The position numbers and the translations under genes were made by a program. From contig CATLJY010000258.1 of assembly GCA_949987705.1 (NCBI GenBank), positions 62,001-126,000 of the forward strand: DNA of 64,000 bases, written 5' to 3'. The stretch is from Thereva unica. Lineage: Eukaryota; Arthropoda; Insecta; Diptera; Therevidae. The stretch's first letter is position 1; each line of letters starts with the position of its first letter. The notes under the pieces are model-generated. The model had not been told where the DNA came from, searched no databases, and saw only the letters and a list, made by a program, of their open reading frames with translations. Positions 38,121-60,249 of this stretch are shown one piece after another.

Positions 38121-38149
38121 ATTTGTTTACAAATAACATACAAAAATGA

Positions 38150-39407
38150 GTAAAAATTTCTCAAATGTATCACTAAAAACCGAAGATTCATAATTTATAA
38201 TGAGTTTATGCTTAATCGGTAGGTTATTATGCACACAATCATGCCACGAAATAGTTTTGTAAAAAAAAAATTAACAAAGTTATAAACAAATTAATTTTGA
38301 GAGCATTTTTATTTTGAAAATTTTTTGTAACCAGCCGAATTAATATTGTTTGCTCATCACAACGTCGTTGCTTAGATGAAAGATTGAATTTTAGGTATAA
38401 TTGAAAAAAGTATAAAAAAAGTGAATATTTCCTAATTGTTAATAACAAAATAAGATGTAAAATGAAAAAAAAGGTGTTCTTCGCTAGGTAAAAATTCAAA
38501 AAAAATATGTTTCAATAGGAAATTAAATGCAGAATCATAATCCGTTGAAAAAACTCACGTGCCACTTTTCTCAACAAAGTTATAGCGATTTTTCATTGCA
38601 AGGAAAACCGCCCGCGCCGGGCACCGCGCTCCATGCAACGCCATGCTTGCACACCGCGCCGTCGACTGCTTTTCGTTTTGTATGCAGAAACGCGTTTTAA
38701 GTTTAGGTTGATGAATAAACAAATACATGTCATTGTTAAATAGAAATTTTGATGTAGTTTAACAATTTTAAACATTTGTAATTTAATAAAATTGTTAAAC
38801 TACATCAAAATTTCTATTTAACAATGACATGTATTTGTTTATTCATCAACCTAAACTTAAAACGCGTTTTTGCATACAAAACGAATAGCAGTCGACGGCG
38901 CGGTGTGCAAGCATGGCGTTGCATGGAGCGCGGTGCCCGGGGCGCGGTGGCCGGCGCGTGGTGCCCGGCGCGCAGTTTTCCTTGCAAAGAAAAATCGCTA
39001 TAACTTTGTTGAGAAAAGTGGCACGTGCATTTAATTTCCTATTGAAACATATTTTTTTTTAATTTTTACCTAGCGAAGAACACCTTTATTTTTCATTTTA
39101 CATCTTATTTTGTTATTAACAATTATGAAATATTCACTTTTTTTATACTTTTTTCAATTATACTTAAAATTCAATCTTTCATCTAAGCAACGACGTTGTG
39201 ATGAGCAAACAATATTAATTCGGCTGGTTACAAAAAATTTTCAAAATAAAAATGCTCTCAAAATTAATTTGTTTATAACTTTGTTAATTTTTTTTTTACA
39301 AAACTATTTCGTGGCATGATTGTGTGCATAATAACCTACCGATTAAGCATAAACTCATTATAAATTATGAATCTTCGGTTTTTAGTGATACATTTGAGAA
39401 ATTTTTA
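38150..39407. repeat. 1.25-kb near-perfect palindrome (~620-bp arms)
   Basis: From a centre near 38775-38790 the two arms are reverse complements out to about 38150 and 39407. Both arms encode the same chance 69-codon frame (LFLYFFQLYLKFNLSSKQRR...), showing high identity. Differences: the left arm has ~25 extra bases near 38527-38552, and the right arm has extra GC-rich units (GGCGCGGTGGCCGGCGCG) near 38939-38975. Near the centre, GTAGTTTAACAATTTTA faces TAAAATTGTTAAACTAC with a loop of under 20 nt. Arms of this length suggest a recent foldback duplication or a hairpin DNA element. Confidence 0.92.
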
Positions 39408-39579
39408 TTCAATACAAACATACATACATATAGGGAAAGCTATATAAAGCTAATACATACATATGTACATACATTAGGTCCTACCAATATTTTTAATTTT
39501 ATTGAAATACAAATGCTTAAATATCTCGAAATAACACAAAGTGGACTTGCCCCACTTTCAAAATGAACGGCTCATATAT

Positions 39580-50565: not shown

Positions 50566-53500
50566 ATGGATACACGAACTTACCATTCACGAAATAATGC
50601 TACTGCATCCGGGGCAGCCGATGCGCCAGCGCTGGGGACCAGGGATGCTGGTGAGAAGTGGGTTACTGGCCAAAATAATGCTACTGCATCCGGGGCAGCC
50701 GATGCGCCAGCACTGGGGACCAGGGATGCTGGTGAGAAGTGGGTTACTGGCCGAACACCCAAATTAGTCACACCGAAAAGGGAATTAAAATTCGCTGCGT
50801 GGAATGTACGAACAGGACATCACGTTGGTCAAAAGGAAATCATAGCAATGGAATTGTTGAAATGCAAAATATCAATTGCTGCGCTATCGGAACTACGGCT
50901 TACCGGATCCGGGATATTGACAATCGTCCCGCCAACAATCGACGAAACGATGATGCTTTACTATTCCGGTGGTGAGAAAAGAGAGGCCGGCGTCGGCTTT
51001 ATGGTCGACCGACGGGCTGCCAGCAGCGTTATCGCATTCCAACCGATATCCGAGCGTTTGGCGGTTATAACCATCAGTGGAACGATCAAGACCCATATCA
51101 TATCCGTTTATGCGCCAACCGAGACCAGCACGGACACGAACAAGGAGGAATTTTACGATCAGCTTCAACAGACGCTGGATATGATACCTCAAACCGAATT
51201 AATAATTCTCGCGGGGGATTTCAATGCACATTCAGGAGTAGATCGAACCGGCTGGGAAGAAACCATGGGCAAATTCGGACACGGAGTAATTAATGACAAC
51301 GGCTTACGCCTGCTTTCGTTCGCATCGTCAAACAACTTGATCGTTGGCAACAGCATTTTCCGCCATCCACCCAAACACCAACTCACCTGGCGAAATCCAT
51401 CCGGCAAAGACTCGGCGATGTTAGACTACGTTTTGATCAACACAAGATTCCGATCGACGCTTAAAGACGTACGTGCAATGCGTGGACCCGATTGCGGATC
51501 GGACCATTATCTTGTTCGAGCGAAATTGCAGATGCGATTGCAAAGAGCGAAGAAAATGGAGCCACCACCAGCCAAGAAAAATTGGGCGTGCCTACGGGAC
51601 CCGGCCATCGGGCGAGAGTTTCAAATGGCATTATCCAACAAATTCGCGGCGCTCGCAATACCGGACGATATCGATGTAGAAGAAAGGCAATTGTCGGAGT
51701 CTATTGTGGAGTGTGCAATGGAGTTGTGTCCAACTATCCGTAAACGGACGCAGCCATGGATCTCGGACAGCTGTCTGGACCTCGTCGATCAGCGGAAGCG
51801 CATGAAACACGTCGACTTTGAGGAATACCGAAGATTGAACAAAGAAGTTCGGCAGAAAATGAAATTGGAACGAGAAGCGTACTGGAATAACGTTGCGGCC
51901 GACATGGAAAAAGCGGCGTCGAGGCACGAGTACCGGACGCTGTACCAGACAATCCGCCGGTTAGGCGGCAAAACAACATCAACAAACGACAACATCAAAA
52001 AATCGGATGGAACTTTTGTGACTTCTGCCCATGAACGCCTGGAGCGGTGGAGAGCATTCTTCCACCAGCTGTATAACCACGATCCGCCGCAAGGTCCAGC
52101 ACCCGAACCACCGATTATCGAACAGCCGATGAATCAGTTTCTCGATACCGAACCAACAATTATCGAGGTGAAGACAGCAATAAAATCGCTGAAAAATGGA
52201 AAAGCGCCGGGAATAGACCAAGTAACCGCCGAGATGATCAAAGCTGGAGGTGATGTCTTATCACAACGACTTCATGTCCTCATAACACACATATGGCATT
52301 CGGATCGTGTCCCTTCGGTATGGAAGAAAGCGATCGTTGTCCCAATTTTGAAGAAAGGCGACAGTCGGGAATGCAAGAATTATCGCGGTATTAGCCTTCT
52401 TTCGATCGTCGGTAAAGTATTTACGAAAATAATACAATCGAGGCTACAGAAACATCGAGAGCAAACAAGCCGGGAGGAACAAGCGGGGTTTAGACCACAT
52501 CGAGGATGCATTGATCAAATATTCGCCCTCCGTCAGTTAATGGAAGAAAGAATTCGTTGCGGCAAACGAATTGTCGTCGTTTTCATCGATTTCAAATCCG
52601 CTTTCGATTGCATCGATTGGAACAGCTTGTGGAGAGTCTTGGTAACCGAACACGTGCCATTGGGAATCATCCAACTTCTCCAAGCGTCGTACGATGGCTC
52701 AACCAGCAGCGTTCGTATTCGAAACGACTTATCCGAGGAGCTCCCGATTCAGACGGGTGTCCGACAGGGGGACGTCGCTTCGCCACTTCTCTTCAACGTT
52801 GTGATCGACGCGATTATGCGTGAAGCATTCGATGGACGACTCGGAGTTCAATACGACGACAACAACTTCGTAACAGACTTAATGTTCGCCGACGATAGCG
52901 CTGTTTTCGCCGACACGGATGCCGAAGCAACGGACATCTTATACGATATTTCCCGCATCGCCCAATCATACGGGTTAAAAATCAATGCGGAAAAGACCAA
53001 AGTGCTCACAACGGATGGATCAAGAGCCAGTGTTCACCTCGATGGAACCCAAATCGAACAGGTTCCAAGGTTCAAATATTTGGGATCATTGGTTGAGGAA
53101 ACGAAAGTAGCATCGACGGCCGACGTTCACAGCCGTATCGGCCAGGCAACAGCAACATTCGCCTCGCTCAAGTGGTGCATATGGAAACGAGCAAATATCT
53201 CCATCAAAACAAAACTACGTCTTTACCGAACGTTGATTCTTCCGATTCTTCTTTATGGATCTGAAACGTGGACACTGCTCAAACCGGACGTTAAGAAGCT
53301 CGAGGTCTTCCAAATGCGATGTTTGAGGCAGATCCTCCGTGTCTCACTCCGTGATCGCCTTCGAAACGAGGTTGTCAGACAAAGATGCGATCGGCAAACA
53401 CTGATCGAGGAAGAAATGCAAAAACGTCGACTACGGTGGTTTGGACATGTTTGCCGAATGGATGATAACCGCTTGCCACGTAAACTTCTCTGGCGAGACC

Positions 53501-53718
53501 GTCCTGCAGACTGGAGAATACAGCGATCGGCACCGAAGAAAACCTGGTTGAAGAATATCGAGGGTGACTTAAAGAATCAACGATTATCAGTTACCGAGGC
53601 TCGAGACACCGCCAAAAACCGAGAAGAATGGAAGCGAACCGTGAAGAGAGTTCGGGACCCAGCGGCACCGACAGCAGCGTATCCGTTGCGGGGACGTCCC
53701 GCTCGGACCGCCAGCTAA
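50566..53718 (+). CDS. RTE endonuclease-reverse transcriptase polyprotein, 1050 aa, intact
   Basis: Nicks target DNA and primes reverse transcription of its own RNA. N-terminus: two 27-residue tandem repeats (residues 10-36 and 37-63). APE-type endonuclease from about residue 75: FAAWNVRTGHH, ALSELRLTG, ISVYAPTETS, ILAGDFNAHSG, AMLDYVLINTRF, GPDCGSDHYLVR. RT: SLKNGKAPGIDQVTAEMIKA, RVPSVWKKAIVVPILKKGDS, YRGISLLSIVGKVFTKII, EQAGFRPHRGCIDQIFALRQ, VFIDFKSAFDCIDW, GVRQGDVASPLLFN and catalytic FADD at residues 774-777. C-terminus: LLYGSETWTL, QMRCLRQILRVSLRDRLR and RRLRWFGHVCRMDD. Length is normal for a complete RTE. The start at 50566 is the first ATG of the open frame. Confidence 0.95.
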   Translation: MDTRTYHSRNNATASGAADAPALGTRDAGEKWVTGQNNATASGAADAPALGTRDAGEKWVTGRTPKLVTPKRELKFAAWNVRTGHHVGQKEIIAMELLKCKISIAALSELRLTGSGILTIVPPTIDETMMLYYSGGEKREAGVGFMVDRRAASSVIAFQPISERLAVITISGTIKTHIISVYAPTETSTDTNKEEFYDQLQQTLDMIPQTELIILAGDFNAHSGVDRTGWEETMGKFGHGVINDNGLRLLSFASSNNLIVGNSIFRHPPKHQLTWRNPSGKDSAMLDYVLINTRFRSTLKDVRAMRGPDCGSDHYLVRAKLQMRLQRAKKMEPPPAKKNWACLRDPAIGREFQMALSNKFAALAIPDDIDVEERQLSESIVECAMELCPTIRKRTQPWISDSCLDLVDQRKRMKHVDFEEYRRLNKEVRQKMKLEREAYWNNVAADMEKAASRHEYRTLYQTIRRLGGKTTSTNDNIKKSDGTFVTSAHERLERWRAFFHQLYNHDPPQGPAPEPPIIEQPMNQFLDTEPTIIEVKTAIKSLKNGKAPGIDQVTAEMIKAGGDVLSQRLHVLITHIWHSDRVPSVWKKAIVVPILKKGDSRECKNYRGISLLSIVGKVFTKIIQSRLQKHREQTSREEQAGFRPHRGCIDQIFALRQLMEERIRCGKRIVVVFIDFKSAFDCIDWNSLWRVLVTEHVPLGIIQLLQASYDGSTSSVRIRNDLSEELPIQTGVRQGDVASPLLFNVVIDAIMREAFDGRLGVQYDDNNFVTDLMFADDSAVFADTDAEATDILYDISRIAQSYGLKINAEKTKVLTTDGSRASVHLDGTQIEQVPRFKYLGSLVEETKVASTADVHSRIGQATATFASLKWCIWKRANISIKTKLRLYRTLILPILLYGSETWTLLKPDVKKLEVFQMRCLRQILRVSLRDRLRNEVVRQRCDRQTLIEEEMQKRRLRWFGHVCRMDDNRLPRKLLWRDRPADWRIQRSAPKKTWLKNIEGDLKNQRLSVTEARDTAKNREEWKRTVKRVRDPAAPTAAYPLRGRPARTAS
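50593..50754 (+). repeat. 81-bp in-frame tandem duplication in the RTE ORF
   Basis: Two copies of AATAATGCTACTGCATCCGG through GTGGGTTACTGGCC, differing at only a few positions (for example CAGCGCTGG versus CAGCACTGG). They double a 27-residue Ala/Gly-rich segment in front of the endonuclease. Confidence 0.95.
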
Positions 53719-56720: not shown

Positions 56721-57318
56721 GATAAAAAAATAAAATTTTAAATAAAAACTTGTAAGGAAACCACTCCTGACAATATTAACCATATAGTCCAACAAAGGAT
56801 TTATTGAACGTCTGATGATCTTTACTAGTCGCAAATAATGGGATACGAGTATTTTAAATCTTTAAAACGGAAAATTCAGAACATATTTTTTGCAAATAAT
56901 AGTACCTATAATATACAAATTTTTTAAACACTATTTTATAATAATACTTACCATTTAACATGTATTTGCAAAAAACTGATATTTTGACCCTAAAACTTCT
57001 AAAAGAAGGGTAGAAAATCAGTAGACTTTATAACCCCTTATAAGAACTCTAAAAGGAAGCTCTCTGCCAAATTCAATTTAGCCTGTACCCAATCATTTCC
57101 GCTATTTCGCTTTTTTCGACTCAATTTACCTATACTGTTTCGGAACTCAACAAATATAAAGAACATTCCGAAAAATGTTATGCAGCAGTTTATAAAAACA
57201 ATATTTATATATGTAAATATATTATACATATTATACATAACATATGTGATATGAATACTTAAAGAGGTTATTTATACCTACACAAATAAGGGAAAGGAAT
57301 AAACCATAAAATGATGCA

Positions 57319-57834
57319 AGTAGGTACTAGGTCCCTTGAGTCTGGGAAAAAAACCGGTTTTGGGATTTAGGTCAAGGTGATTAATCACCTGTAATTATGT
57401 TAATTGGTTGACAGGTCATAAATCACCTGTAATTATCGTAAGTGGCTGACCTTGGAATCTGCACCAGACGGTTTAGACTGAGAGCTAAATCACGTGGGAT
57501 GGAATGCAGGTTAATGCCATCAGTTGCCTGTAATGTTGGAGTCCAAGTCAAGGTCATCAATCAATCACCTGTTGGTAGGCCCTGGAATCTAGGTCGCGGT
57601 CGTTGAACTTGAGACTGGTTTGCTGGTGTTCGGGAACTGGTTCGGGGTCGTTGGCTTGGGCGGGGTCTTTGGCGGGGGCGGGGTCCTCGGCTGAGGACTA
57701 GTCTTGACTCTCGAACTGGTTTGGGGTCGGTGAGTTGGGGGTAGTCCATGTACCAAGTGGAAGAAAAAGCGAGAGTGGAAAGTGCAGCAGAACTAGTGAA
57801 GCCGACTATGGCTATGACGATGACGACGACAGCG
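57319..57834 (+). repeat. Left ~516-bp terminal inverted repeat
   Basis: Contains paired ATCACCTGTAATTAT words, a G-rich tract (GGGCGGGGTCTTTGGCGGGG), and ends at GACGATGACGACGACAGCG. It has about 33 bp (AGGTTAATGCCATCAGTTGC and beyond) absent from the right copy, and the right copy has one extra GCGGGG unit. Confidence 0.95.
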
Positions 57835-58075
57835 GCGACGGCGATGTTGAGAACCCGATAGCTCGAACTTGTCGACGGATACATCTGGCTATGGGTGGTG
57901 TAAATTACGAAACTGGTCTGAACCTGAAAAAATGATTATAACAAAGATTAATATTGAGGACGAGAGAACCAGAGAGTGAACCAAGAGAAAATTGAAAACA
58001 AGATTGCGAGGTTAAAAAACAAAAACCTTTTCGAATAAAATATTTTTTATTTTTAGATTTTATTTTTCACATGTT

Positions 58076-58849
58076 TTAATATTTTTTTCTGTTTTGTGAT
58101 AAAATAATGTTCCCTTCACCGTCGTCGTCCACATTCAGTTCATGGGTATTTCCTGATCTTTTCTTAAATATGATTTCGAAGGAATTACCCATCTCTCCCA
58201 AATTCTCTATGGCATATTTCCCCTTTTTTAATAAATTAATCCCCCTATCGGAGAGGTCAGTATACCTTCCCGGTAAGTATATAATACTATCCTCCAGCTC
58301 TACCAGCACATTTTTCCCGAACTTGGTATTCACCTTCCTAGCATCAATTATGTTATACGCTTCGTCGACTTTCATGTCTTTCAAAGGCATATTTTTCTTA
58401 TATTGAAAACTGTTGATTTCCTCCAGTATGCATTCCTCATCCTCATCGACATCAGTATCATCATCATCATCATTCACAGAGATGATAGGGGACATGTTTT
58501 TCTTCCTTTTGCTAAGAGTCGACTTAAAAAAATCCTCCTCCTTCTTCTCCTCGAAAAGTCGCCTCTTTACCCCTTTGCTAGTTGACGATTTCCTAGCTGA
58601 CTCCAAACTATCAGCACCAAACTCAAAATTATTAATATTCATACTGCACATATCTGAAAAGAATAAAGTGGAATGGTAAAATAATTGAAAATTTATTTAT
58701 TTAAAACATTCTTACCCAAATGTTTCTTTTGATTTTTCAATAAAAAATTCTGTTCCTCACTTGATTTAACTTTTGAAAGTTTCTTCTGCCTTCCTCTAAA
58801 ACTGATGAAACTCTACTTAAGAATCATCAGCCAAAGTGGAGTTTATATA
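58076..58849 (-). CDS. 191-aa acidic protein with OB-like C-terminal domain, spliced, intact
   Basis: Only gene of the 57.3-59.7-kb element. TATA box, untranslated first exon, 62-bp intron (58654-58715; donor TTTGG|GTAAGA, acceptor TTCTTTTCAG), then ATG at 58651 (or in-frame 58642) and 191 codons. The N-terminal ~55 residues are basic/Ser-rich with nuclear-signal-like KGVKRRLFEEKK and LSKRKK; residues 60-80 are very acidic (NDDDDDTDVDEDEE). Residues 88-164 look like a compact beta domain: MPLKDMKVDEAYNIIDARKV, KFGKNVLVELEDSIIYLPGR and KKGKYAIENLGEMGNSFEII. I recall similar short transposon-borne proteins and infer an OB-fold nucleic-acid-binding role, but this is not established. AATAAA follows the stop at about 30 bp. 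No decay is seen. Confidence 0.7.
58843..58849 (-). promoter_or_regulatory. TATA box of the mini-element gene
   Basis: On the minus strand GGCCTATATAAACTCC lies about 130 bp before the splice donor of the noncoding first exon and ~200 bp before the start codon. No stronger initiator could be fixed; TCAGTTTTAG lies 40-50 bp downstream. Confidence 0.65.
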
Positions 58850-58884
58850 GGCCTGAACTACCCATACATGGATACTGTTAAAAA

Positions 58885-59222
58885 AAGTCGCTTTAATAAT
58901 TAATTACGATCACGCAAGCGGATATACCGCGCAATTGCACATGATCTGGTTGCAGCTGCAAGAGCCCGTTTGTTTTTGTTTTGTTTTTGTTTCTTGCTCA
59001 TTTCGCAGCTGTCGCATTATTATCTAGCTAAGAAATGCAGATGCCAAGCTAACCAATTAAAATAATATGTATAGCAGGCGAGTTTAACTTCCAAAGATTG
59101 AAACAAGTCGCATTAATAATTAATTGCAATCACGCAAGCAGATATACTGCGCAATTGCACATGATCTGGTCGCAGCTGCAAGATCCCGTTTGTTTTTGTT
59201 TTGTTTTGCGTTTTTTGCTCAC
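58885..59222. repeat. Direct duplication (~118 bp, 220-bp spacing)
   Basis: AGTCGC, TTAATAATTAATTRCRATCA, CGCAAGCRGATATACYGCGC, AATTGCACATGATCTGGT and GTTTGTTTTTGTTTTG occur at 58885-59003 and again at 59105-59221. The second copy abuts the right TIR. Confidence 0.9.
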
Positions 59223-60249
59223 GCTGTCGTCGTCATCGTCATAGCCATAGTCGGCTTCACTAGTTTTGCTGCACTTTCCACTCTCGCTTTTTCTTCCACT
59301 TGGTACATGGACTACCCCCAACTCACCGACCCCAAACTAGTTCGAGAGTCAAGACTAGTCCTCAGCCGAGGACCCCGCCCCCGCCCCCGCTAAAGACCCC
59401 GCCCAAGCCAACGACCCCGAACCAGTTCCCGAACACCAGCAAACCAGTCTCAAGGTCAACGACCGCGACCTAGATTCCAGGGCCTACCAACAGGTGATTG
59501 ATTGATGACCTTGACTTCATTCCATCCCACGTGATTTAGCTCTCAGTCTAAACCGTCTGGTGCAGATTCCAAGGTCAGCCACTTACGATAATTACAGGGG
59601 ATTTATGACCTGTCAACCAATTAACATAATTACAGGTGATTGATCACCTTGACCTAAATCCCAAAACCGGTTTTTTCCCAGACTCAAGGGACCTAGTACC
59701 TACTGATGCACTTTTTAAATAAAAACGTCCACCGACTAAAAGATCGCAAAAAGACTCAATTTTTGTGTTTGCATTTTGTGTAGAAATGTTTAAGGAACAT
59801 ATTAAAAGAATTTTTAAAGCGGGAGCTAGCGAGACTTTTTTGTAGGGCTTCTTTAACAAAAAAATTTCTAGCAAAAATAATAAAAATTTTACTGTCTTTC
59901 CTTAATTAATTAATTATAGAGGTATAAAAATAGATAATATTGCTTGTAGAAATGTTTTCCTTGAGGAGAAGAATCCATTTTTTTTAATTAAATAACTTTT
60001 ACCACAGTAAAATAATAAGCACAACAATTAGCAGCTTCGACAAGGGCTTAAAAATTCTAACAATCACTTGCTACAATGGTCACTTTTGCACTGGTCCTGC
60101 GAAGAGAAAAATTACACCTGACCGCCATAAACCGGATTAATGTGTGGCAGGGGTCTCCTACTAGATATTTATCAGGCAAAAAGTTCGAAAATCGAACTTC
60201 GATTTTTTGATTTTTGGCCAGCTTTTTGGCACTTTTGCCCCCCTGGGCG

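Follow-up and report, generated by a model that had tools for sequence, protein, structure and literature searches.

The element at positions 57319-59704 of the window (the whole 64-kb stretch of DNA analysed, C260:62001-126000 in the assembly numbering used) is almost certainly a non-autonomous Polinton/Maverick. We favour, at slightly better than an even chance, its being a defective Polinton derivative made by copy-back, which would have kept the tips and the PolB-facing gene, depended on a helper in trans and integrated with a 6-bp stagger. It is classed as non-autonomous and not as an autonomous Polinton because only one ORF longer than 110 aa, of 191 aa, was found between its ends, PolB and integrase being absent from the element. 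This ORF is a regular conserved gene located near one end of a full-length Polinton family.

The element measures 2,386 bp (~2.4 kb) and is bounded by AGTAGG...CCTACT. A gapped alignment of its two TIR arms paired 477 columns, 5 of them mismatched, and opened gaps of 1, 38, and 6 nt. The TSD was exact at 6 bp, and no match was detected at any other length from 3 to 14 bp. A 2.4-kb element with these ends, ~0.5-kb TIRs, and an exact 6-bp TSD was what the initial annotation had described, and its coordinates proved to be exact. The outer 365 nt of the left TIR are common to long Polintons, while the inner part (57684-57834) is common to a sub-lineage; the spacer that follows is contiguous with the inner TIR in C130 and C220, and partly so in other loci. 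On the promoter side of the gene, the repeat stretches 58878-58987 and 59098-59207 were 92% alike, and other copies had longer arrays. Of 2000 sequences simulated from a second-order Markov model of the 1,387-nt core, one attained the length of the 191-aa ORF. Single-strand DNA folding of the TIR was no better than that of shuffled sequences (z -0.37). The joined flanks matched the rest of the window in short stretches only, and no second copy of the element was found within the 64-kb window.

Table 1. Features of the element and of its insertion site, in window positions.
Feature	Position	Strand	Remark
TSD GATGCA, left copy	57313-57318	.	exact 6-bp match with 59705-59710
Left TIR	57319-57834	+	516 nt, tip AGTAGGTACTAGG
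Gene-side spacer	57835-58045	+	from left TIR to 3' end of gene
AATAAA polyadenylation-like signal	58059-58064	-	
ORF, conserved Polinton gene	58076-58651	-	191 aa, reading toward left tip
Predicted 5'-UTR intron	58654-58715	-	62 nt, GT...AG
TATA box	58843-58849	-	TATATAA
Promoter-side tandem repeat	58878-59207	.	period 220 nt, ~1.5 units in the window element
Joint between shortened repeat unit and inner end of right TIR	59221-59222	.	...TTGCTCA / CGCTGTCGTCG...
Right TIR	59222-59704	-	483 nt, inverted copy of left, 38-nt gap
TSD GATGCA, right copy	59705-59710	.	

Other features were observed in the window. Positions 38147-39411 form a 1.27-kb near-palindrome of nested inverted repeats, with outer arms (38147-38472 and 39086-39411) at 99% and inner arms 16 nt apart. 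An intact retroelement ORF of 1,050 aa lies at 50566-53718, with an 81-bp tandem duplication near its start; the best relative of its reverse transcriptase part was 83% identical. Finally, the 248-aa ORF at 238-984 reads like what we take to be a Harbinger-type transposase.

We looked for the ends of the element in the 910-Mb assembly (930 contigs). The first 18 nt of the TIR occurred exactly 51 times, and a control pattern was found 0 times. Exact tips lying less than 70 kb apart and facing each other made 17 pairs, the window element being one of them; the shortest spans 163 bp and the longest 66 kb. From 40 scored tip matches, 12 other facing pairs were obtained, and both tips were read in 10 of them (7.3 to 35 kb), the two longest being left out. 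All ten carried AGTAGG...CCTACT at both ends, which is expected since the pairs were picked by that end. An exact 6-bp TSD was located directly at the tips in eight of these pairs and beside 3 or 7 extra tip bases in the other two, and the ten TSDs were ten different sequences. The search by the TIR tip, suggested earlier as a check, therefore returned copies with the same ends and differing 6-bp TSDs. Base 14 differed in one of the pairs read, and the end of one relative is CCTACTACT. In the loci read, no element sharing the AGTAGG...CCTACT ends showed a different transposase or another TSD length, and the exact 22-nt TIR tip was not found in viral and prokaryotic contigs. The extra bases stood at one tip in each of two elements (L080/L081, L094/L095), as a repeated ACT and as 7 nt: at C3:117.8M the right tip carries the extra ACT and then the exact TSD, and at C1:64.6M 7 bases separate the left tip from the TSD CACAGA. 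Such bases might come from slippage at a protein-primed end.

Larger relatives sharing these ends were found to carry PolB and integrase, as had been anticipated. PolB (PF03175) matched at least 197 stretches of the genome (75 of 698 candidates scored) and none in 14 control genomes. At least 6 of the 17 exact-tip pairs enclose such a match, the longest open frame reaching 1,288 aa, and the PF03175-bearing pairs include C686, C3:117.8M, and C1:148.1M. Matches above the Pfam cut-off were obtained for an adenovirus-type protease (Peptidase_C5, 1.4e-7) in C1:148.1M and for a packaging ATPase (Pox_A32, 1.9e-8) in C5:17.2M. At C1:64.6M, an rve integrase (4.7e-14) with a chromodomain adjoins a BIR domain (1.2e-12). 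The chromodomain end of the integrase is present in C1:148.1M too, so that this one locus combines the tips, the TSD, the 191-aa-type gene, PolB, the protease, and the integrase end. Long ORFs of the relatives (e.g. 443 and 523 aa) are candidate capsid genes, without a Pfam match above the cut-off. Two further observations were made on these loci. The element at C1:64585579-64592879 (L064) is a 7.3-kb derivative with integrase, ATPase, and BIR, and no PolB- or capsid-like ORF was found in the 5.5 kb read. Its gene of the BIR (inhibitor-of-apoptosis) type, detected by Pfam beside the integrase, has closely similar proteins at three other loci (L003, L004, and L006).

These results bear on whether the element could belong to Ginger, IS3EU/IS481EU, Dada, or some other cut-and-paste type with ends like these, which we consider hardly credible. 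IS3EU and Dada do have TSDs of ~6 bp. Ginger2 likewise prefers 6-bp AT-rich targets (PMC2836005, in excerpt). However, in the published descriptions, as far as these are covered, Ginger1/2 and IS481EU ends begin with TGT, whereas those of the window element begin with AGT, and its relatives with those ends encode PolB, rve integrase, adenovirus-type protease, and packaging ATPase. The earlier assignment to the Polinton/Maverick type thus holds, on the 6-bp TSDs and on ends shared with PolB- and integrase-bearing elements.

The gene itself was followed through the genome. The core 57850-59200 gave 40 scored places among 390 candidates (the window's own included), most of them at 93-95% identity, and the shared part mostly begins at window position 58046. 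We read 39 copies besides that of the window. An outer-TIR piece was located on the 3' side of the gene in 28 of the 39, none was in the fetched stretch in 10, and C220 had the inner TIR only. The gene reads toward the TIR end, and its promoter side has from ~1.5 to 7 units of the ~220-nt repeat. A protein-level search yielded 150 scored places (of 622 candidates); their identities ranged from 97% to 53%, and stops interrupt some of them. PolB was detected within 10 kb on the interior side in at least 17 of the 39 close copies, head-to-head in 17/17, and within 12 kb in at least 22 of 57 copies at 53-61% identity, head-to-head in 22/22, two of which share one PolB; these counts rest on the PolB matches listed, and copies with none listed are no sign of its absence. 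Across the genome, the gene faces PolB in Polintons of the ~95%, 61%, and 56% identity classes. It was present in 12 of the 17 exact-tip pairs, its distance from the tip being at most 1.4 kb in 11 of them and 3.35 kb in the twelfth; none of the 150 scored places fell in the remaining five. In an alignment of 40 rows (the window and the 39 copies), TATATAA was present in at least 38 and the GT donor in 38, and the ATG after the intron recurs. Most other copies have one extra codon before the second ATG, and the shared first ATG stands. The initial description of a single TATA-driven, spliced gene is in line with the recurrence of TATA box, predicted intron, and ATG. The claim that it had been specially kept as an accessory gene must be dropped, since it is a regular gene of the family that faces PolB.

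Selection on the gene was estimated from 33 of 41 examined copies, the other eight having a premature stop or matching only in part; among the 33 used, some stop short at codon 174 or 183. Pooled pN/pS was 0.46 over the 528 pairs of these open copies. When the window gene was compared with single copies, dN/dS ranged from 0.35 to 1.42. Its private changes were four nonsynonymous, one in-frame insertion, and no synonymous, and the probability of finding no synonymous change among four is 0.43 without selection. On these sequences, purifying selection is seen in the family, and the window copy shows none of its own, judged on few changes. The earlier suggestion that the gene may be under selection is thus retained for the family and finds nothing in the private changes of the window copy.

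The intact ORF with its TATA box and intron, together with the few TIR mismatches, could also be expected of a settled miniature family, that is, a gene-bearing MITE spreading as such, its gene being selected in the miniature form. We think this highly improbable: a single 2,386-bp miniature was present among the 17 exact-tip pairs, a count that copies with altered tips would escape, and the private changes show no selection on the window copy. The near-identity of the TIRs, taken at the outset as a sign of recent mobility, is compatible with the window copy alone having inserted recently; no second miniature was seen among the exact-tip pairs.

The 191-aa protein matched 0 Pfam families and nothing in PHROGs. 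In a search of 5.8 billion proteins, no match was obtained at E 0.01, nor at E 1 for residues 80-172, and the window retroelement ORF, taken as positive control in the same search, retrieved 1,210 proteins at E 1e-20 with its reverse transcriptase part, some of them from animals, relatives that suggest an animal genome. No PDB entry came below E 0.1, whether the sequence or a 4-row profile was the query, Foldseek gave no match at E 0.001, and no relatives of the gene were found in viral and prokaryotic contigs. The N-terminal half of the protein is charged and contains an Asp/Glu run. AlphaFold, run on the single sequence, gave two models of poor quality (mean pLDDT 42.3 and 44.7), and the C-terminal part was strand-rich in one of them, at low confidence. 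In that first model, strands (b) and one helix (a) followed residue 98 in the order b-b-b-a-b-b-b-b, reminiscent of an OB fold, whereas the second model, cut to 87 residues, lacked the strands after the helix. An OB-like fold of the C-terminal part is thus a guess from these models, and a nucleic-acid-binding replication helper as the gene product would be a weak guess. The gene's head-to-head arrangement with PolB marks it out as a specific candidate for a conserved protein of replication or regulation.

The origin of the right arm was then considered from the distribution of the TIR sequences. For the main family, the integrase end of one element was compared with the gene end of a different one; this gave a TIR of 434/440 nt, the two ends being 97.96% alike. 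The outer 365 nt of the window TIR matched both the gene ends and the integrase ends of long elements, and its inner part belongs to a sub-lineage comprising C130, C220, C103, and others. An 80-nt inner-TIR query (57755-57834; 40 of 58 candidates scored) was found at full length at eight loci outside the window. Seven of them run on into the gene-side spacer, and the eighth, C2:57652217, resumes gene-side sequence 195 nt on; in C130 and C4:88467294, the spacer follows the inner TIR and the gene does not. C221 showed a partial match, 65 of the 80 nt; the sequence interior to that end is of the kind found at other, non-gene ends. C103 continues past the repeats into sequence common to the interior side of other gene copies, indicating that the sub-lineage had longer members. 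The joint between promoter repeat and right arm reads TTGCTCA^CGCTGTCG and shows no clear microhomology, GCTGTCG, common to repeat and TIR, lying 7 nt off. At the five mismatches between the arms, relatives share the left base at four and the right base at one (1 to 12 matches each).

Copy-back replication would yield a right arm that consists of gene-end sequence, and so would plain deletion in a parent whose two TIRs were both long. From what is known of Polintons, a helper's PolB would replicate the linear form of such an element from its tips and the integrase would insert it. Under copy-back, the window element would have been made by a replication error while the parent Polinton existed as linear DNA: synthesis from the gene end would have run through the gene into the promoter repeats and there have turned to copying the gene end once more, as far as the tip; the right arm would thereby have become an inverted copy of the left. 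A full-length relative would have supplied PolB and integrase in trans, and this helper integrase would have inserted the defective element via a 6-bp staggered cut. From the sequence, we infer the supply by a helper, the copy-back step, and the expression of the gene. The length of the window TIR (516 nt versus 434/440 nt in the main family) and the foldback structure of two other derivatives with the same tips speak for copy-back. Against it speak the C221 match and the lack of clear microhomology at the joint, and the eight sub-lineage elements were seen at the inner-TIR end, some of them with spacer but no gene. A plain internal deletion of a long-TIR Polinton, in the chromosome or during replication, would have removed everything from the promoter repeat to the far TIR and would still leave a non-autonomous Polinton. 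We hold such a deletion to be quite possible, short of probable. Longer relatives have at their gene end the same order of sequence as the left part of the element, and C103 goes on past the repeats; the TIRs of the group are alike at both ends, and the C221 match at a non-gene-type end allows for a parent whose TIRs were long on either side. Full-length inner-TIR matches were, however, found only with gene-side flanks, and this distribution, at 8/8 loci, makes copy-back the likelier source of the right arm, ahead of plain deletion, though it is no proof.

Two foldback derivatives with the same tips were observed. The first, C437:23146-34197 (L062, L090, L091), is an 11,052-bp element with the 6-bp TSD CGCGTC and unlike flanks. 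The 7 kb read of its interior lack frames of 120 aa or longer and are centred on a palindrome without a loop, whose 2,567-nt arms are reported as 100% complementary; another 508 nt, also at 100%, follow a 3-nt shift. It may be a foldback derivative of a Polinton or else an artefact of assembly, its contig being unplaced; foldback read artefacts are known (PMC12870357, in excerpt). The second, C5:5074225-5074387 (L108), is a 163-bp foldback of Polinton tips only, with imperfect arms, and its flanks AACAAG/AACAAC differ at one base.

Taken in its fullest form, copy-back would make the window element an integrated defective Polinton genome, the fossil of extrachromosomal, protein-primed linear replication helped by full-length Polintons; we rate this as plausible, at a little under an even chance. 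If true, Polintons would shed defective genomes, much as adenoviruses do, and these would stay behind in the germ line. Derivatives with copied-back ends and clean 6-bp TSDs, without PolB or integrase, would be evidence in the genome for a replication and integration machinery that acts in trans on any linear molecule having the right tips. Polinton replication is believed to pass through linear, protein-primed, virus-like DNA, whose free forms are hard to catch. An extracellular form is yet to be detected (PMC7805220, in excerpt).

In the parts of the literature covered, the Polinton TSD is published as 6 bp (PMC10045372, PMC8097293), the tip motif as (AGT)2 (PMC8097293), and intact vertebrate elements as 12.7-24.6 kb long with TIRs of 46-1,447 nt (PMC8097293). 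The window element is like these in its 6-bp TSD, in TIRs of several hundred nt, in five of the six bases of the tip motif (AGTAGG), and in ends common to elements with PolB, rve integrase, C5 protease, and A32-like ATPase. It is unlike them in its length of 2.4 kb against the 12.7-24.6 kb of the intact vertebrate elements (PMC8097293, in excerpt) and in carrying one gene only, and its TIR is longer than that of the main Polinton family of the genome. Fragmentary Mavericks with consensus sizes of 0.6-4.5 kb were reported in a midge survey (PMC8504770, in excerpt). In the open-licence PMC papers, the phrase non-autonomous Polinton/Maverick and similar phrases had no match, and in the titles, abstracts, and passages covered no description of a one-gene or copy-back Polinton was met, which does not prove its absence. 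Like MITEs and other non-autonomous DNA transposons, the element is internally reduced, has kept its ends, and would depend on a full-length helper. MITEs are as a rule numerous and without genes, whereas the window element is the one copy found and has an intact parental gene. Snap-back/copy-back defective genomes occur in adenovirus. Snapback genomes are also described for AAV (PMC8235507, in excerpt). The window element differs from copy-back and snap-back defective viral genomes in being integrated into the chromosome with a 6-bp TSD, its copy-back step being deduced from the letters of the DNA, and resembles them in having one genome end present twice, inverted, around a unique loop of promoter and gene.
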